Of a DNA stretch of 64,000 nucleotides, positions 3,577-17,349 are shown one piece after another. The notes beneath the pieces are model-generated. The model searched no databases. It saw only the letters and a list, made by a program, of their open reading frames with translations, and was not told the DNA's origin. Origin of the DNA: Candidatus Dormiibacterota bacterium. GTDB taxonomy: Bacteria; Vulcanimicrobiota; Vulcanimicrobiia; Vulcanimicrobiales; Vulcanimicrobiaceae. The position numbers were made by a program, and so were the translations under genes. Within the stretch, counting starts at the first letter, position 1, and each line of letters begins with the position of its first letter. The stretch spans positions 186,001-250,000 of the forward strand of contig DATKRS010000029.1 of NCBI GenBank assembly GCA_035532035.1. Reading direction: 5' to 3'.

Positions 3577-5991
3577 TTGACAACCGAGATTCTCATCTCG
3601 AGCGACCCATGGGAGAACCGGGTCGCCATACTGGAGGGCGGCACGCTCTCCGAGCTCTACATCGAACGCGAAGAACGCGTCATCGGCTCGATCTACAAGG
3701 GAAAGGTTCAGAACGTGCTGCCCGGCATGGGTGCGGCGTTCGTGGACATCGGCTTGGGCCGCAACGCCTTTCTGTACGTCGACGACATCAACAAGCAACC
3801 GCTGAACATCGGCGACGTCGAGATCACGCACGGTCATAGTGGATTTACCATCGGCGAAAAGGTGAAGCGCGGCGACGAGGTGCTCGTGCAGATCGTCAAG
3901 GAGCCGCGAGGACTCAAAGGCGCGCGCATCTCGACGAACATCTCATTGCCCGGCCGATATCTGATCCTCATGCCGACGGGCCGGTTCTCCGGCGTTTCGC
4001 GCAAGATCGAGTCGGCCGAGGAACGCAACCGTCTGAAGGGCGTGATGAAGCGCATTCGCCCTGAGGGGATGGCGACGGTCGTGCGGACGGCGGCGGCAGG
4101 CGTGAGCGAGGCCGAGCTGATCGCGGACCTCGGCGTCCTGATCCGCATGTGGCACGGCATTCTGGAAACCTACAAGCGCGCGCCCGCTCCGGCGCTGTTG
4201 CACAAGGACATGAATCTCGTCTACAAGGCGGCGCGGGACTTCGTCACCGCGGACGTCGAGCGCGTGCTGATCGACGATGAAACCGAGTATCGCCGCGTCC
4301 GCGAGTTCTTGCAGCTGCTGGGGCCGCAGTATCTCGATCGCGTCCAGCTGCACGAGCGCGGGCACGACCTCTTCAAGGACTTCAACGTCGACGAGGAGCT
4401 GCAGCGCCTGCTGCGACCCAAGATCAATCTTCCCGCTGGGGGATCGATCGTCATCGAAACGACGGAGGCGCTGACCGTCATCGACGTCAACTCGGGAAAG
4501 TTCACCGGCGGCAAGAATCTCGAAGACACGATCGTGAAGACGAACGTCGAGGCGGCGGCGGAGATTGCGCGGCAGGTTCGCTTGCGGGACATCGGCGGCA
4601 TCATCGTGGTCGACTTCATCGACATGTCCAGCGAAACGTCGCGCAACCGCGTGGTCAAGACCCTCGAGGACGGCTTGCGCCGCGATCGCACTCGCTCGAC
4701 GATCCAGTCATTTTCGAACCTCGGCCTCCTCGAGTTCACGCGCAAGCGAATCGGCAAGGATCTCGGCGCGCAGCTCCAAGGGGCGTGCCCGTCGTGTGAC
4801 GGCCTCGGCGCGGTGATGTCTCCGGAATCGGTGGCCATCGAGGCGTTTCGAGCGATTCGCGATCGCGGCCGTAGCGGCGCCGGTGATTTCGTCGTCTACG
4901 TCGCCCCCACGGTCGCGGTGCAGATGGAGTTCTGGTACCGGGACGAGTGCCGCGCGCTCGCGCAGAGTCTCGGTCAGGATATCTATGTACGCGTCGATCC
5001 GATGCTCCACCCAGAGCGCTGGCGCATCGAGCGCGTCGCTGCGGTGAAGGACGAAGGAGCGGTTCGCGTCGGCGACGAGCACGACGTAGAGCTGCTCGCC
5101 GGCCGGCTTCCGACGGTGACGTCGGCGGCTGCGGTCGTGAACGGGCGCGTCGTCGAGGTGGAGAATGCCGCGAACAACTCCGGCGGCTCCGCGCGCATTC
5201 GCATCATCGACGTCGACGACGAGAACGACGCGGTTATCGCCGAGATGATGACGGCAGGGGTTGCGAAGAAGGCGCGCAGGCGCAAGCGCACGGCCGCACC
5301 GAGTGCGGCGGAACAGACCAAAGCGCTACGCGAGCTTGCCGAAGAGGCCGCAAAGCAGGCGCAAGGACGGCCGCCGATCGGCATTACGACGGTTACCGAA
5401 GAGGAAGAGGCAGAGGACAAGGCGCTTGCAGCCGAAGCGAAGGCACAGCAGCGGCCGGACGCCATCGTGATTGGCGAGGGCACCTCCGGCGAGGAGGCGC
5501 ACCGCAAGCGGCGCCGGCGCCGCGGACGCAGAGGGCGCGGGCGAGGTCGCGCCACGCTCGAAGCCGCGTCTGCAGTCGGAATCCCCGCTCAGAGCGCAGA
5601 GGCGCAGCTCGACGGCCAGCCGGCCGCGCAGCCCGCGCAGCCCGCGCATTCTGAAGAGCAGCATCCGGGCGGACGTAAGCGGCGGCGGCGCCGCGGACGC
5701 CGAGGACGGGGTGGATCCATCCTTGCGGTCGCGCCTGCTGCCGCTCCGGCAGTAGAGGCGCCACCGCCGAGCATCAGGCTTCCCGCTGAGGAGCCGCAGG
5801 TTGCGAAGCCGACGCGAAGGCGTCGAACGCGCGCGGCGGCGCCCGTGGAGGCGAAGGAAGTTCCAGCGGCCGAACAGCCTGCGCTTCCGCCGGCGGCGAC
5901 GAAGCGCGCACGTAAGAAAGCGACCGCAAAGAAGTCGAGCGTGGGCGCCTCGACGCGACGCCCGCGCAAGAAGAGGGACGGGGTCTCTTAG
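3577..5991 (+). CDS. rng: Ribonuclease E/G family endoribonuclease
   Basis: An 804-residue RNase E/G. The catalytic half (~1-500) carries an S1 RNA-binding domain (~36-120, from GSIYKGKVQNVLPGMGAAFV), an RNase H-like region, and DNase I-like metal residues in VIDVNSGKFTGG (near 300) and VVDFIDM (near 345), equivalent to E. coli D303 and D346. The zinc-link CPSC is near 405. The C-terminal third is low complexity: two Arg-rich clusters (RKRRRRRGRRGRGRGR-like) and Lys/Ala tracts, probably RNA-binding or scaffold segments as in RNase E. Length fits RNase E more than RNase G. TTG start at 3577 follows AGAGGA. It makes 5'-end-dependent cuts in mRNA and rRNA precursors. The gene ends four bases from the convergent protease gene. 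Confidence 0.88.
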   Translation: MTTEILISSDPWENRVAILEGGTLSELYIEREERVIGSIYKGKVQNVLPGMGAAFVDIGLGRNAFLYVDDINKQPLNIGDVEITHGHSGFTIGEKVKRGDEVLVQIVKEPRGLKGARISTNISLPGRYLILMPTGRFSGVSRKIESAEERNRLKGVMKRIRPEGMATVVRTAAAGVSEAELIADLGVLIRMWHGILETYKRAPAPALLHKDMNLVYKAARDFVTADVERVLIDDETEYRRVREFLQLLGPQYLDRVQLHERGHDLFKDFNVDEELQRLLRPKINLPAGGSIVIETTEALTVIDVNSGKFTGGKNLEDTIVKTNVEAAAEIARQVRLRDIGGIIVVDFIDMSSETSRNRVVKTLEDGLRRDRTRSTIQSFSNLGLLEFTRKRIGKDLGAQLQGACPSCDGLGAVMSPESVAIEAFRAIRDRGRSGAGDFVVYVAPTVAVQMEFWYRDECRALAQSLGQDIYVRVDPMLHPERWRIERVAAVKDEGAVRVGDEHDVELLAGRLPTVTSAAAVVNGRVVEVENAANNSGGSARIRIIDVDDENDAVIAEMMTAGVAKKARRRKRTAAPSAAEQTKALRELAEEAAKQAQGRPPIGITTVTEEEEAEDKALAAEAKAQQRPDAIVIGEGTSGEEAHRKRRRRRGRRGRGRGRATLEAASAVGIPAQSAEAQLDGQPAAQPAQPAHSEEQHPGGRKRRRRRGRRGRGGSILAVAPAAAPAVEAPPPSIRLPAEEPQVAKPTRRRRTRAAAPVEAKEVPAAEQPALPPAATKRARKKATAKKSSVGASTRRPRKKRDGVS

Positions 5992-5995
5992 CCGG

Positions 5996-7351
5996 TTAGG
6001 AGTTTTCCGCGTTCAACTGCGCAAGTCGGTTCTGGAGAAACTCGAGCGCGCGCTGCAGCTGCACGTCGTGCGGCGGGTCACCGTAGCGGGGATGCTGGTT
6101 CTCCGACACCGTGATATCCGGTGAGATCCCGAGATGGTTGATGTCGCGGTTGTGCGGCGTCAGGTATCGCGCGGTCGTGATCTTGATCGCGGAGCCGTCG
6201 CCGAGAGGATAGATCGTCTGCACGACGCCCTTACCGAACGTGCGCGTGCCGATGATCGTGCCGACGCCGCTGTCCTGGATCGCGCCCGACGTGATCTCCG
6301 AAGCGGATGCAGTGTGCCCATTGACGAGCACCGCGAGCGGAAGCGGTGAGATGGCCGTGTTGTCGGCCTCCCACGTCGTCACATCGGCGTGACGTTCCTC
6401 GACCGAGACGATGGGGCCGCTGGAAATGAACTTGGAACTGACCGCGATGGCCGCGTCGAGATAGCCGCCGCCGTTGTCGCGCAGATCGAGCACGATCGCG
6501 CGTACGCCCTCCTGCTCCAAGCGATTCAGCGCATCCGCAAGCTCGCTGCCCGTGTCCAGTCCGAACACCGTCAACTCGACGTACCCGATCTTGTTCGGAA
6601 GCATCTTCTCGAAGACGCTGACGTCGTGGATTTTCGCCCGCGTGATCACGATCGGCTGCGCAAGCACCTTCCCGTCGCGTTGGATCGTGAGCGAGACGTG
6701 CGTTCCCTCGCGGCCGCGCAGATGGCTGCTGGCCTGTTGCGGCGTCATCGATTTGGTCTGCGCACCGTCGATCGAGACGATGAGATCGTCCTGTTCGATC
6801 CCAGCCTTGTCGGCGGGGCCGTTGGGGATGACGTTCTCGACGGCGATGTAGTGCGTGCGATCGTCCTGCTGGATGACGATTCCGATGCCGCCGAAGTTCC
6901 CTCCGTCGAGTCCTTGGTTCAGCTCCGCGAACTCCTTGGGCGTCAAGAAGACGGTGTAGCGATCGTGCACCGACCGCATCATGCCGTCGATCGCCGCATA
7001 GGCGAGCTGATGCACCGGGACGCGGTGCGCGCCGGCGCGTGCGGCGGCTGCGATCTCCGACTCGATCGCGTGGACGTTGCTGCCTTCGAGCCCGTTGGCG
7101 CGCAGCACGGGAAGCGTTGCGTGCTTTAAGCCGGCCGACCGAAGCGTGGAGATCAGGTCGCCGCGAACGCTGTCGAGCACCGATTGCGGCGAGACCTTCT
7201 GGTAGAAGTCCGTCGTCAGGTGCGTGTAGCTGACCGCAATTTCGCTGCGGTCCGTGGCCGAGAGCACGGACGTGGGAGCTGCGTGAACCGCGGACTCGCC
7301 CAAGAGGGCGGCGACGAGGGCGAGTGCGAGGAGAAGCGGGTGGCGATTCAT
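5996..7351 (-). CDS. S41 family C-terminal processing protease with PDZ domain (Ctp 1)
   Basis: A 451-residue exported protease. A signal peptide is obvious at the ATG (MNRHPLLLALALVAALLGES...HA), so the upstream in-frame extension is rejected. A PDZ domain follows (GGNFGGIGIVIQQDD, then AGIEQDDLIVSIDGAQTKSM). The catalytic core has a TASASEITSGA serine motif (about residue 350) and TFGKGVVQ lysine (about 375), the Ser-Lys dyad of CtpA/Prc enzymes. It is the last gene of the minus-strand ftsEX operon, 28 bases after a paralogue. Ctp proteases elsewhere trim PG hydrolases or their adaptors, so control of the neighbouring M23 hydrolase is a reasonable inference. Confidence 0.85.
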   Translation of the reverse strand: MNRHPLLLALALVAALLGESAVHAAPTSVLSATDRSEIAVSYTHLTTDFYQKVSPQSVLDSVRGDLISTLRSAGLKHATLPVLRANGLEGSNVHAIESEIAAAARAGAHRVPVHQLAYAAIDGMMRSVHDRYTVFLTPKEFAELNQGLDGGNFGGIGIVIQQDDRTHYIAVENVIPNGPADKAGIEQDDLIVSIDGAQTKSMTPQQASSHLRGREGTHVSLTIQRDGKVLAQPIVITRAKIHDVSVFEKMLPNKIGYVELTVFGLDTGSELADALNRLEQEGVRAIVLDLRDNGGGYLDAAIAVSSKFISSGPIVSVEERHADVTTWEADNTAISPLPLAVLVNGHTASASEITSGAIQDSGVGTIIGTRTFGKGVVQTIYPLGDGSAIKITTARYLTPHNRDINHLGISPDITVSENQHPRYGDPPHDVQLQRALEFLQNRLAQLNAENS

Positions 7352-13440: not shown

Positions 13441-13462
13441 ATCTTCGAAAGTGCGTACGGCC

Positions 13463-13586
13463 ATGCTCGTTGCTAAATGGGGGAATAGCCTCGATCTCGT
13501 AGAGCGACCGGCTCTCCCTCTGCGACGCTTTCATCGTTGCGGCAGCGGAATCGATTGCGCTCGTAGTCAATACGGTGCGTTTAGGC
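13463..13586 (+). pseudogene. Decayed VapBC-type toxin-antitoxin remnant
   Basis: ATG 13463 opens with MLVAKWGNSL, the near-universal start of AbrB/MazE-type VapB antitoxins, but the similarity stops after ten residues. In another frame, from about 13506, the sequence reads DRLSLCDAFIVAAAES, very like the C-terminal LSxxDAxIVAAA helix of VapC PIN-domain toxins. So an antitoxin start and a toxin end appear to be joined by a deletion of the middle, with the remains running up to the transposon's target duplication. Both matches are short and judged by eye; a chance match of one is possible, of both in the right order less so. Confidence 0.4.
13578..13586. repeat. Left 9-bp target-site duplication of the transposon
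   Basis: CGTTTAGGC lies immediately outside the left terminal inverted repeat and is repeated exactly at 17341-17349 immediately outside the right one. A 9-bp duplication is typical of IS1-family insertion. Confidence 0.9.
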
Positions 13587-13605
13587 GGTAGTGGTCCCTT
13601 TTGAA
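13587..13605 (+). repeat. Left terminal inverted repeat
   Basis: GGTAGTGGTCCCTTTTGAA, an exact reverse complement of the right end (17322-17340). Identity ends abruptly after 19 bp on the inner side. Confidence 0.93.
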
Positions 13606-13652
13606 TCCGCTGTGAGGTAGGATTCGGTGCGGGCTTGTGCTACGCTTGGGGT

Positions 13653-13892
13653 ATGCCTAAGCGGTCTCGCAAGCCCCCATCCGATCCGAACCTAGCGGCT
13701 CGGTCCATACTCGATCAAGTCACAGGCGAATCGGAGAAGGTTCAGCCGCTGGAGAAGAACGCGGCGGCAGTCGAGCTAGGACGCAGAGGCGGCCTACGCG
13801 GCGGACCAGCGCGAGCGAAGAAACTAACCGCCGTGCAGCGTAAAGCGAGCGCCAAGAAAGCGGCGATCGCCCGGTGGGGGAAAAAGCGCTAA
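13653..13892 (+). CDS. Small basic Gly-rich cargo protein (unknown function)
   Basis: A 79-residue protein, strongly basic. Its second half reads ELGRRGGLRGGPARAKKLT followed by an Ala/Lys-rich helix ending ARWGKKR; a G-x-R-G-G-x-x-G-G-x-A-R-A-x-x-L-T pattern that I recall from many small hypothetical proteins around mobile elements. The pattern suggests nucleic-acid binding, but no function is established. ATG 13653 is preferred over an in-frame upstream ATG at 13635. It lies just inside the left end and its stop overlaps by four bases the stop of the convergent ATPase gene. Confidence 0.7.
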   Translation: MPKRSRKPPSDPNLAARSILDQVTGESEKVQPLEKNAAAVELGRRGGLRGGPARAKKLTAVQRKASAKKAAIARWGKKR

Positions 13893-15331
13893 GCTCCCAG
13901 GGCGTCCTTAATAGGTAATGCAATGGAATCCAAGATGGCGGACTTCGTACAGTGTGTTGTCCATGCACCGCACATAGCTTGCCAAAGGACCTCCGTGCCC
14001 ACAACCAAGGAATCGGCAGCGCTCCGTACCCATTCGTGATGATCCGCTATCGTGATGCTCTTGTTTAGCGCGTCGATGGTTTCCGACGCGCTTCTACCGA
14101 TCTTATCATGTACTCCTATCCAAGCGATTTGCTTTAGGGCTCCGAACACGACACGCTCCGGCGCGTCCTCACCGGGTAGTAGGTTACAACCAACCGATTT
14201 GTCCTGATCCCCGTCGAGAAACACAACTGTGGGTCTGCCAAATCGTTTTCCCGAAACCATTTGACCGAGGGCATGCCCAACCGAAGCGCTCCCATAGGGG
14301 AGAACCTTTATCCGACTCAAGACCTCCCGTTCGTTTGCGGCGACTAAAGCCTCGGTCACAAAAATGACCGACATTTTATCCTCGACGTAAACGTCGCATT
14401 CCGGATGCGGTTCGTCATCCATGCGCGTCATCGCGAAATCCGGACTGACGCCCGTGATGATCGTCTTACCAGAAGCGCCATCCATGATATAAACGCGACC
14501 TTCAGGCGGCAGCTCGTCAAGCACGTACGGAGAGTGCGTGCTCAGGATAATCTGAACTTCCTTCGTGCGTGCAAGGTGGGCTAAATCGTTGAGCAGTTTT
14601 CGCTGCGCTCTTGGATGCAATGAAGTCTCGACTTCGTCAATTAAGACAAGAGAATACGGGGGCTGGTCTTTCGCGAGCAATTCAGCCGCAGCAAGCTCCC
14701 CGGCACCGGTATGGAAACCTGAGTATCTGCTTCCGCCCGCCTTGAGGACAGGGATAAATCTCTTGTTATCAGCCGTGGTCGTCGATAGACCGGCGCCTGC
14801 GTACTCGCGTCCCATGACGGCGGACAATCGCGCCAATTTATCGGCGTCAAAAGCCTTGTGAGTGCCCTCAGACGCTCCAGGTGTCAACAACTTCGAGTAG
14901 CCGACCCGTGCTCCCACCGGCTGGATTCGACGAAGGTCGATGTTCTCAACGTCCCGCCGCGGGCGACCAGGGTTACCGCGCCAGCGGGGTCCCGGCTTGC
15001 GGATCGAGGCTTCTTGTGACTTGCCGCCTTGTTTGAAAGAGTATCGAATGGACGCTTTGCTTACTTTCTCAAACGGTGTGTCCGGAAAGAAATCGGATGC
15101 GTACCGTTCGTGCCCGGACGTAACGGCGTACGCGGCCGCGGCAGCTTGGAGTATCGTGCTCTTGCCGGACCCGTTCTCGCCGACCAGGGCGACGATGGGA
15201 AAGGCGAAGGTCACCCGTTGCCCCGTCCAGCCCCTTATCCCGTCGATCTCGACCCAATCGAGACGTTGGGGCCAGGACGTTCCCGTTAGCCATTTGGCTT
15301 GTAGACGGCGCATTTCGTTCGACAGCGGCAT
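13889..15331 (-). CDS. OLD-like AAA ATPase with C-terminal TOPRIM-like domain (cargo)
   Basis: 480 residues from ATG 15331 (upstream in-frame ATG at 15406 is less likely; GAGAGGTG sits before 15331). Walker A is GENGSGKST (51-59) and Walker B LVLIDEVETSLHP, with a following ILSTHSPYVLDELP segment, as in AAA_15/AAA_21 and OLD-family ATPases of the SMC/ABC type. Beyond ~305 come VYVEDKMSVIF and VVFLDGDQD, which fit the Glu and DxD of a TOPRIM nuclease. OLD-like ATPase-nucleases act in phage defence (OLD of P2, GajA of Gabija, the split pair in PARIS), so defence is plausible but not shown. No Gabija GajB helicase or other partner lies beside it. It is transcribed against the transposase. Confidence 0.75.
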   Translation of the reverse strand: MPLSNEMRRLQAKWLTGTSWPQRLDWVEIDGIRGWTGQRVTFAFPIVALVGENGSGKSTILQAAAAAYAVTSGHERYASDFFPDTPFEKVSKASIRYSFKQGGKSQEASIRKPGPRWRGNPGRPRRDVENIDLRRIQPVGARVGYSKLLTPGASEGTHKAFDADKLARLSAVMGREYAGAGLSTTTADNKRFIPVLKAGGSRYSGFHTGAGELAAAELLAKDQPPYSLVLIDEVETSLHPRAQRKLLNDLAHLARTKEVQIILSTHSPYVLDELPPEGRVYIMDGASGKTIITGVSPDFAMTRMDDEPHPECDVYVEDKMSVIFVTEALVAANEREVLSRIKVLPYGSASVGHALGQMVSGKRFGRPTVVFLDGDQDKSVGCNLLPGEDAPERVVFGALKQIAWIGVHDKIGRSASETIDALNKSITIADHHEWVRSAADSLVVGTEVLWQAMCGAWTTHCTKSAILDSIALPIKDALGA

Positions 15332-15466
15332 GGAGCACCTCTCAGCGGCGGGTTCTAGCGGCACTATAGCTAGAACAGCGCCGCGGTACAACCACAATAA
15401 GGCCATGATTCATCCAACTATTTCCGGATACCTGCAGCGCTATACCGAATCGGCGCCCCTTTACGC

Positions 15467-15496
15467 TTGACAAATCCGAGACCGGTCACGCATAAT
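15467..15496 (+). promoter_or_regulatory. tnpA: Promoter of the transposase gene (TTGACA-N18-CATAAT)
   Basis: A consensus -35 TTGACA (15467-15472) and -10 CATAAT (15491-15496) with an 18-base spacer. The transcription start would fall at about 15503, next to the ATG at 15504, so the mRNA may be leaderless. The match is closer to the housekeeping consensus than anything seen in front of the host genes. Confidence 0.55.
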
Positions 15497-15503
15497 GGGG
15501 AGT

Positions 15504-16358
15504 ATGAACCGTCTCCCGCTGGCCCTCCGCGTTCAGGCCCTCTCGGCGCTCGTCGAGGGGAACTCCATCCGTGGGACCTGCCGTATGGTCGGGATCGACA
15601 AGAAAACCATCCTTCGGCTCCTGGCCGACGTGGGCGATGCCTGCGAAGCCTACCTCGACGAAACGCTGCGCGGTCTCAAGTGCAAGCGGCTCCAGCTCGA
15701 TGAAATCTGGAGCTACTGCCACGCGAAGGAACGGAATCTCAAGCCGCACCTGCGCGGAGCCGATGGCGTCGGCGACCTTTGGACTTGGGTCGCCATCGAC
15801 GCGGACACCAAGTTAATCGCGTCATGGTATCTCGGGAAGCGGCTCAAAGAGGACGCGGACGCCTTCGTTCGCGACCTCGCTTCGCGCGTCGATTCACCGG
15901 AGGTACAGATCACGACGGACGGCCTCGGTTCCTACGCAGAAGCGATCCGTCGCCACTTCGCACGCGCTGACTACGGCACGGAGGTTAAGGATTACGGGCT
16001 TCTCGACGATGAATCGCCTGAGCGCAAGTATAGCCCGATGGTCGTGAAGAGCGTTCAGCGCACGAAAGCTTGGGGCGTTCCCGATCTCGACCATATTTCG
16101 ACCGCCTACGTTGAGCGACAGAACCTCACGATGCGTGTGTCGATGCGTCGGTTCACGCGGCTAACGAATGGCTTCTCGAAGAAGGCCGAGAACCTACAGC
16201 GAGCAATCGCCTTGAACTTCGCCTACTACAATTTCTGCCGCAAGCACTCGACGATCAAGACGACGCCAGCAATCGCAGCAGGGCTCACGGATCGCCTCTG
16301 GACACTCCACGATCTCGCAAACTTGCCTGATCTCATGCGCGGTGGGCTAGCGGCATGA
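15504..16358 (+). CDS. IS1-family DDE transposase
   Basis: A 284-residue single-frame transposase. N-terminal helix-turn-helix (EGNSIRGTCRMVGIDKKTILR) followed by the DDE core: CKRLQLDEIWSY (first Asp), QITTDGLGSYAEA (second Asp) and YVERQNLTMRVSMRRFTRLT (Glu). YVERQN and YYNFCRKHSTIKTTPA are characteristic of the single-ORF IS1-like group. Cuts and joins the 19-bp ends. ATG 15504 (MNRLPLALR) is the usual start of this group; ATG 15495 overlaps the -10 element and would not be transcribed. Full length, no frameshift, so the element may still be active. Confidence 0.93.
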   Translation: MNRLPLALRVQALSALVEGNSIRGTCRMVGIDKKTILRLLADVGDACEAYLDETLRGLKCKRLQLDEIWSYCHAKERNLKPHLRGADGVGDLWTWVAIDADTKLIASWYLGKRLKEDADAFVRDLASRVDSPEVQITTDGLGSYAEAIRRHFARADYGTEVKDYGLLDDESPERKYSPMVVKSVQRTKAWGVPDLDHISTAYVERQNLTMRVSMRRFTRLTNGFSKKAENLQRAIALNFAYYNFCRKHSTIKTTPAIAAGLTDRLWTLHDLANLPDLMRGGLAA

Positions 16359-16468
16359 AACTGCTAGGATGAACATTTGTGCGAAGCGGTTGCCGCATCA
16401 AATAGCTACGGTTGGCGACTTTCTCGCTTCGGTGTGCGGACCTGCGTTGAAAGAACAGCACGGGCAAA

Positions 16469-17209
16469 ATGGATAAGCGCAGCATAACCAGAGACTCCAT
16501 TGTCGCAGAAATACAGCGCGTCGCTGCTAGTATCGGGCGAGCGCCAGGGAGAGATGAGTTCCTCGCAAACAGCGGAGTTAAAGAGTCCGATTGGTTAGGA
16601 AGATACTGGGCTAGATGGGGTGACGCGCTTCGCGAGGCGGGATACGAGCCTAACGAATTTCAAGCAGCGCATACCGACGAACATATGATAGAGAGCCTTG
16701 TTGAGCTCATTCGCGCACTTGGAACGTTTCCCACGAGACCCGAGATGGACCTACGGCGTCGGACTGATCGTTCATTCCCTTCCCCTAAGACGTTCGAGCG
16801 CTTTGGCAATCGAGGCGCACTTGCTGCCCGCGTAAGGCAGTACTGTGAAAGTCGCGAAGGCTACGGCGACGTCATCGACGCGTGTACTACGGTAACGGCA
16901 AGTATGCCGCAAGGTAGTAGCGCAAGGGCCACCAAGGAACCCGTCGAGGAGGCCTTTGGCTTTGTCTACCTCATCAAGTCCGGGCGCCACTACAAAATCG
17001 GACGCACCAACGCTGTGGGACGCCGGGAACGCGAGCTGGCAATTCAACTTCCCGACAAGGTTAAGACCGTTCACATGATTCGTACGGATGACCCCGTCGG
17101 CATCGAAGGCTACTGGCATCAGCGGTTTCAGGAAAGGCGCAAGAATGGTGAATGGTTTGAACTGGACGCGAGTGACGTCAAGGCCTTCATGCGTCGAAAG
17201 TTCATGTGA
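16469..17209 (+). CDS. GIY-YIG (MUG113/T5orf172-like) domain protein with N-terminal repeats (cargo)
   Basis: A 246-residue protein. Residues ~165-246 contain FGFVYLIKSGRHYKIGRTN, a GIY-YIG core variant, then an Arg and HQRFQERRKNGEWFEL with the conserved late Glu, as in the MUG113/T5orf172 branch of GIY-YIG nucleases. Residues ~5-130 hold two copies of a repeat (IVAEIQRVAASIGRAPGRDEF...YWARWGDALREAGY and a weaker second) resembling the homing-endonuclease-associated repeat that binds DNA. So it probably binds and perhaps cuts DNA. It lies downstream of the transposase in the same direction, near the right end. Nuclease activity is inferred; some relatives have incomplete active sites. Confidence 0.75.
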   Translation: MDKRSITRDSIVAEIQRVAASIGRAPGRDEFLANSGVKESDWLGRYWARWGDALREAGYEPNEFQAAHTDEHMIESLVELIRALGTFPTRPEMDLRRRTDRSFPSPKTFERFGNRGALAARVRQYCESREGYGDVIDACTTVTASMPQGSSARATKEPVEEAFGFVYLIKSGRHYKIGRTNAVGRRERELAIQLPDKVKTVHMIRTDDPVGIEGYWHQRFQERRKNGEWFELDASDVKAFMRRKFM

Positions 17210-17321
17210 GGCAAGGCTTCAAGTTAAACCCATCCCGTGTTTCTAAGTTAATAACACCCCACTTGGGGCACGGCTAGGCCGCTACGGGCACGGGCAGGGT
17301 ACCGGCCGAGGCGCGCGTTTT

Positions 17322-17340
17322 TTCAAAAGGGACCACTACC
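17322..17340 (-). repeat. Right terminal inverted repeat
   Basis: TTCAAAAGGGACCACTACC, exact reverse complement of the left end at 13587-13605, preceded on the inner side by a T-run (17318-17323). Confidence 0.93.
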
Positions 17341-17349
17341 CGTTTAGGC
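17341..17349. repeat. Right 9-bp target-site duplication of the transposon
   Basis: CGTTTAGGC, identical to 13578-13586. It contains the rmuC stop codon (TAA on the minus strand, 17346-17344). Confidence 0.9.

Follow-up and report, generated by a model that had tools for sequence, protein, structure and literature searches.

Introduction

Insertion sequences of the IS1 family carry a DDE transposase between ends of the GGnnnTG type and are flanked by target duplications of 8-9 bp. Classical IS1 is about 0.7-1.2 kb long and encodes its transposase in two overlapping open reading frames (ORFs), insA and insB', with a programmed frameshift. Described here is a 3754-bp IS1-like transposon at positions 13587-17340 of a 64,000-nucleotide stretch (hereafter the window) of contig DATKRS010000029.1, from the assembly GCA_035532035.1 of a Candidatus Dormiibacterota bacterium. 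The IS1 members closest to it are, we presume, the long single-ORF ISMhu11-type elements and the "transporter IS" with passenger genes; in literature searches of incomplete coverage no paper naming ISMhu11 was found, nor, under transporter IS and defence cargo, any description of the present transposon family. More than the single window element, it is the pattern at the level of its family that is of interest: a conserved chassis carries two slots of changing cargo, much of which resembles known defence genes.

Defence genes move fast between genomes, and plasmids, prophages, large integrative elements and Tn7-like transposons are mostly regarded as their carriers. One cargo gene of the window element encodes a relative of IbfA, a protein of plasmid pUA1135 with ATPase and TOPRIM domains that aborts infection by the P22-like phage UAB_Phi20 (PMC12111858). 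The authors of that study tied IbfA to HEC-04 (Hma-embedded candidate 4) by means of PADLOC and cite activity of HEC-04 against T4 and T5. Tn3, too, is a transposon family in which conflict genes recur inside the element, toxin-antitoxin genes being described as an integral part of it (PMC7157771). The Tn3 elements have another transposase family and another core gene, and the cargo range of the window element's family is much wider.

Results

A complete IS1-like transposon

The element contains four internal ORFs between 19-bp terminal inverted repeats that are 100% complementary, and a 9-bp target duplication lies on either flank. Its features in the window are:

13578-13586, no strand: target duplication, left copy, CGTTTAGGC
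13587-13605, plus strand: left terminal inverted repeat, GGTAGTGGTCCCTTTTGAA
13653-13892, plus strand: bas, small basic protein of 79 amino acids, conserved core gene of the element family
13889-15406, minus strand: HEC-04/IbfA-family ATPase-TOPRIM protein in cargo slot A, from its PADLOC match, its homologues and a predicted TOPRIM fold
15352-15376, no strand: 8-bp inverted repeat GTTCTAGC-9-GCTAGAAC closely upstream of the ATPase start, a possible operator
15467-15496, plus strand: sigma-70-like transposase promoter, TTGACA-18-CATAAT, where DNA homology with sibling elements restarts
15495-16358, plus strand: IS1-type DDE transposase, start probably at 15504
16469-17209, plus strand: GIY-YIG (MUG113/T5orf172) protein in cargo slot B, with two N-terminal homing-endonuclease-associated repeats
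17322-17340, minus strand: right terminal inverted repeat
17341-17349, no strand: target duplication, right copy, CGTTTAGGC

An earlier note, made from the sequence alone, had proposed a complete IS1-like unit at these coordinates; the coordinates are right, and the perfect 19-bp ends, the 9-bp duplication and the intact DDE transposase were all verified. The element is present once in the host genome (2.25 Mb in 38 contigs). No empty insertion site was found in eight genomes of the genus; because only the right flank is conserved in these genomes, and the left is not, the target duplication is the evidence for insertion. Predicted terminators within the element did not exceed chance level. 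In the left flank (13462-13591) an AbrB/MazE-like, antitoxin-like reading frame begins (MLVAKWGNSLDLV...), apparently broken.

The catalytic residues of the transposase, D66, D139 and E204 (counted from the M at 15504), are invariant in an alignment of 11 sequences. The protein matches the Pfam IS1 transposase (DDE domain) model at 1.8e-6 (28.7 bits, above the cut-off of 24.1) and the NCBIfam IS1 model NF033558 at 2.6e-15, where its 56.9 bits lie under the curated cut-off of 100; plasmid relatives 46-48% identical to it are annotated as "IS1 family transposase". Ends of the GGnnnTG type (GGTAGTG here) and target duplications of 8-9 bp, both typical of IS1, are found in the window element and likewise in its relatives. 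The transposase is, however, a single ORF of 287 amino acids without the insA/insB' frameshift, and the element measures 3.75 kb against about 1 kb for IS1 and adds the conserved gene bas and two cargo slots. Because of the single transposase ORF and the length of 3754 bp the element is called IS1-like and not a classical IS1.

A cross-phylum family with a modular chassis

A scan of 84,980 species genomes gave at least 556 confirmed relatives. The best 80 of these fall in the Planctomycetota, Nitrospirota, Acidobacteriota, Verrucomicrobiota, Chloroflexota, Actinomycetota, Pseudomonadota, Thermodesulfobacteriota, Omnitrophota, Zixibacteria and Patescibacteria; the element family spans at least ten bacterial phyla. 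In the phylum of the host, 23 of 149 genomes have a match, nearly all within the window's own family (Vulcanimicrobiaceae); public records of phylum-mates (loci L057-L060; L numbers denote the loci compared here) use the name Candidatus Eremiobacterota. Viral contigs hold 219 relatives.

Complete relatives were collected by an automatic search for ends with an exact 8-9-bp duplication, which returned 103, of which 99 are distinct; six loci whose ends lack the family pattern (L054, L095, L137 and L151-L153) were excluded as implausible. All 99 relatives have 14-20 matches out of 20 at their ends together with an exact duplication of 8-9 bp, and only 2 of 435 decoy placements reached 14/20. The sequence GGTAGTG opens both ends in 81 of the 99, and the median element length is 3.1 kb (n=98).

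DNA homology between the window element and its sister elements is confined to element positions 1-300 (left end and bas), a second block at about 1880-2772, which runs from the -35 box of the transposase to the stop, and the right-end repeat; the remainder is replaced. The family is a modular chassis, made up of left end with bas and of promoter with transposase, that bears two cargo slots: slot A separates bas from the promoter of the transposase, and slot B separates the stop of the transposase from the right end. Where slot B is missing, this stop lies 9 bp from the right end.

The bas profile matches 93 of the 99 elements, although some of these matches are P63C proteins or fragments; when only stand-alone copies upstream of the transposase and on the same strand are counted, 84 of 98 complete elements have bas at the canonical position, usually starting about 65 bp inside the left end. 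Of the three non-transposition genes listed in the earlier note, the ATPase and the GIY-YIG protein are cargo and the small basic protein is a core gene. It bears the motif GRRGG..GG.ARA..LT...R...A.KAA.ARW and weakly matches phrog_2384 (residues 7-38), the family of the P63C proteins. P63C cargo proteins (L032, L037, L040, L091 and about 15 others) start with a bas-type motif, GG.AR..L....R..IA..AA.ARW; that of L091 belongs to the phage family phrog_2384, and bas resembles a free-standing copy of this motif.

The stop codons of the ATPase and of bas overlap by 4 nt (CTAA) in the window, and the same 4-nt overlap is seen in 22 of the 50 cases of a slot A gene convergent on bas. The overlapping genes are diverse (ATPase, P63C, NYN and XRE-peptidase); some of these cases may share a common ancestry. 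The transposase promoter scores 11/12, a score for which about one site is expected by chance in the region, and its position upstream of the transposase is conserved among relatives. In these the promoter spacer often contains an operator-like palindrome, TGCTTGA-N4-TCAAGCA. Upstream of the transposase, TGCTTGA-N(3-5)-TCAAGCA with up to three mismatches occurs in 47 of 97 elements, compared with 3 of 97 after shuffling, and 33 of 97 have it close to the left end. L062 and L114 are among the elements in which the palindrome is near perfect.

Several elements have unusual arrangements. At L037:6318-10223 the right ends at 6888 and 10223 are both followed by GAAAGCGG, which is also in the left flank; it looks like a 571-bp solo unit and a full element on one target, from a nested or one-ended event. 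At L032:2988-3034 a right end, a single 9-bp sequence CAATGCTTG and another left end follow one another, as two tandem elements with a common target duplication. The 5.6-kb element at L080:4115-9712 has bas, a 474-aa cargo gene and a 316-aa cargo gene each twice, apparently through an internal tandem duplication within one element. Some short derivatives that keep the ends and a decayed remnant of the transposase (L055:227-938, L044:5618-6937 and L056:7876-8214) resemble non-autonomous members of the same family, of the kind known as miniature inverted-repeat transposable elements (MITE-like).

The slot A gene belongs to the HEC-04/IbfA family

The best PADLOC match of the ATPase is HEC-04 (PDLC04149, 2.1e-47), in which residues 43-487 of the protein align with positions 21-475 of the 494 in the profile; the homologue on an IncI plasmid matches this profile more weakly (3.9e-32). 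The start of the protein is most likely the ATG at 15331, not 15406, because the homologues begin there. On its sequence the protein belongs to the known anti-phage family HEC-04/IbfA, and the anti-phage flavour that the earlier note gave to the cargo agrees with the phage defence demonstrated in this family; defence activity would extend to the window copy. It shares with HEC-04 and IbfA the single-protein combination of ATPase and TOPRIM, a full-length profile match and carriage by a mobile element, and differs from them in lying in an IS1-like transposon and not in a plasmid or defence island.

The protein carries a Walker A motif (GENGSGKS) and ABC-type motifs. A model of the full protein (mean predicted local distance difference test score, pLDDT, 81.5) has an ABC/SMC-type head that is closest to SMC heads, retron/Septu PtuA, GajA and OLD. 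When the C-terminal domain was folded alone (pLDDT 88.7), the top Foldseek matches were OLD C-terminal regions (E 9e-4), and the best VIA-align matches were PARIS AriB and OLD, with Z scores of 8.7-9.7 (top 9.7 and 9.4) and a root-mean-square deviation of 4.5-4.6 over 158-165 residues. Prediction of an OLD/AriB-type TOPRIM domain at the C-terminus is supported, and the earlier suggestion of an OLD-like ATPase with TOPRIM features was borne out by both the sequence and the predicted fold. E317, D373 and D375 of this domain are invariant in 13 homologues, but the acidic residue that would close the EGxxD motif is missing. At about 480 amino acids the protein is more compact than OLD and GajA, and GajB, AriA and PtuB, the partners in Gabija, PARIS and Septu, are unmatched by the other three genes of the element.

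HEC-04 is found in four elements: that of the window, L064 (Deltaproteobacteria) and L127 (Terriglobia), whose ATPases are 53-54% identical to it and in the same slot, and L231, a third such complete relative with ends at 4077 and 7914 and the duplication GGGAAAAC. A further 14 phage or prophage contigs encode ATPase homologues that are 51-63% identical, without transposase or bas in the available stretch. In 5/5 that were checked (L219, L220, L225, L229 and L230) the gene is directly downstream of a CI-like repressor (phrog_4), a usual place for lysogen-expressed genes, and it is likely that here it is an immunity gene of lysogens. In the ATPase tree the window protein groups with the phage and prophage proteins (100/100), apart from the other transposon-borne ones; the latter do not form one clade with it, and the tree requires at least two changes of label. 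The phylum has just one more full-length relative of the ATPase, at L233:1483-2931 (38% identical), and transposase and bas matches are absent from the 4.4 kb of sequence available there.

Cargo is recurrent and exchanged

Cargo ORFs were clustered all-against-all, with assignments extended by single linkage from representatives. The recurrent clusters are P63C (18-19 members) and two of the XRE-ImmA/IrrE kind, one with 14 members, which comes with a 160-aa partner (12), and one with 8. The representative of the 14-member cluster is PD-Lambda-2_B-like (PADLOC 3e-39), and that of the 8-member cluster is RmrA of RosmerTA (2.6e-122), with RmrT adjoining. Other cargo includes SoFic, a Fic protein (1e-47), HEC-09, an NYN protein (1e-12), PD-Lambda-5 A and B in L174 (1.5e-123 and 3.4e-110), HEC-06/GmrSD in L084 (8e-158) and DNA methylases in L208 and L214. 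With representatives extended to clusters, a match to a defence profile is present in at least about 31 of 105 sampled elements. Matches to known defence systems (PD-Lambda-2, RosmerTA, PD-Lambda-5, HEC-04, HEC-06 and SoFic) are thus frequent in the cargo of the family.

When the four main cargo labels are mapped onto a tree of 101 transposases, 19 changes are needed, compared with a mean of 20.5 for shuffled labels; 49 of 200 shuffles were as low as 19. RmrA takes 8 changes for 8 rows and HEC-04 takes 3 for 3, and the window transposase falls in a supported group of Eremiobacterota elements with P63C or other cargo, none of them with HEC-04. Because the labels scatter on the tree as at random, cargo is exchanged between transposase lineages.

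A different account of this repertoire is that it consists mainly of addiction or stabilisation modules, whose toxin-antitoxin-like genes would prevent loss of the transposon, with the ATPase as one more such gene and phage defence as a side effect. Toxin-antitoxin-like cargo is frequent (XRE-ImmA/IrrE, SocA/Panacea, PemK/MazF and a pair in L041 that, judged from its sequence, is RelE-like), and Tn3 offers the precedent cited above. However, PD-Lambda-5, HEC-06/GmrSD, SoFic, HEC-04 and the DNA methylases are not classical addiction pairs, and in four elements one gene, with no visible antitoxin, encodes the HEC-04 ATPase, which in the phage and prophage contigs adjoins phage repressors. We regard the addiction account as unlikely.

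It could also be argued that the passengers were acquired neutrally and are random genes of the host, as the cargo differs between elements with transposases about 80% identical and many cargo ORFs have no known family. The earlier note had taken random, unrelated cargo as a sign against a defence module; the cargo does indeed change, but it is not random, since the same few families recur in different phyla. Matches to defence families are also commoner in the cargo than in the neighbouring genes: no defence family has more than two members among the 130 genes that flank the elements at these loci, and the matches listed are mostly methylase models. Neutral pick-up is therefore disfavoured and appears very unlikely.

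The GIY-YIG protein is a separate cargo

The slot B protein matches PF13455 (4.1e-17) and PF10544 (2.3e-8) above cut-off, its MUG113/T5orf172 domain following two homing-endonuclease-associated repeats (PF18780). No homologue was found in the 149 genomes of the phylum, in viral contigs, in phage records or in any sampled element, and only partial matches were found, in 4 plasmids.

The earlier note had treated the ATPase and the GIY-YIG protein as one working system; in such a module the ATPase might sense and the GIY-YIG protein cut DNA. Both genes do lie within one intact element, and nuclease subunits partner structurally related ATPases such as PtuA. They are, however, in separate slots on opposite strands, and the ATPase has its own TOPRIM domain. 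Nor do the two constantly travel together: no GIY-YIG homologue stands beside the ATPase in L064, L127, L231 or the 14 phage and prophage contigs. Because the ATPase occurs in these without it, a paired system is highly improbable, and the GIY-YIG protein is read as an independent second cargo. That it instead belongs to the transposition machinery, or is a homing-type nuclease that targets the element, is suggested by its domains but is barely credible because the sampled relatives lack it, have clean ends and duplications nonetheless, and conserve bas as their accessory gene.

Discussion

We consider it probable that the window element is a member of a cross-phylum family of IS1-type transposons, with a chassis and exchangeable cargo, that its slot A provides single-gene phage defence of the HEC-04/IbfA kind and its slot B an unrelated GIY-YIG cargo, and that it spreads by transposition, protects its host and employs bas as a regulator. 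The core would be the terminal repeats, bas beside the left end and the DDE transposase with its own promoter. By analogy with IbfA the ATPase-TOPRIM protein most likely acts once the cell is infected and aborts the infection; its ATPase head would respond to an infection cue and the TOPRIM domain would act on nucleic acid. The GIY-YIG protein, putatively DNA-binding and DNA-cutting, would act independently of this. The element would transpose into phages, plasmids and chromosomes and gain by protecting its host, and bas may be a DNA-binding regulator of transposition that acts via the palindrome common to many bas and transposase promoters.

Several observations weigh against parts of this interpretation. 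Many cargo genes have no family assignment and the clusters rest on representatives; moreover, cargo such as Panacea, PemK and ImmA/IrrE could be there for addiction and not for defence. Identity between the window ATPase and the plasmid-borne relatives compared here is only 25-30%, so that function is transferred across some distance. In the EGxxD motif of the TOPRIM domain VED is present in place of VEG, and Ser or Ala occupies the position four places on from E317; because an acidic residue is missing there, nuclease activity is uncertain. The palindrome half-site coincides with the -35 box in some elements, which contributes part of its signal, and the window's own palindrome is degenerate; bas is a candidate regulator, with a proposed link to the palindrome.

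A bolder extension, for which the hint is the repeated 4-nt overlap of the bas stop with the stops of unrelated cargo families, is that the chassis has a mechanism by which cargo is exchanged at two points, the stop codon of bas and the promoter of the transposase, with bas as regulator or capture factor, which would make these IS1-type transposons dedicated defence-gene shuttles, somewhat integron-like for anti-phage genes across bacterial phyla; we think this improbable.

If the interpretation favoured here is true, defence genes would have a simple, general vehicle in a compact IS1-type transposon with two core genes and rotating defence cargo that is found in at least ten phyla. The unassigned genes in slots A and B would then be ranked candidate defence genes, and the family a tool for their discovery, while the conserved small protein and the promoter palindrome make the regulation of transposition directly testable.

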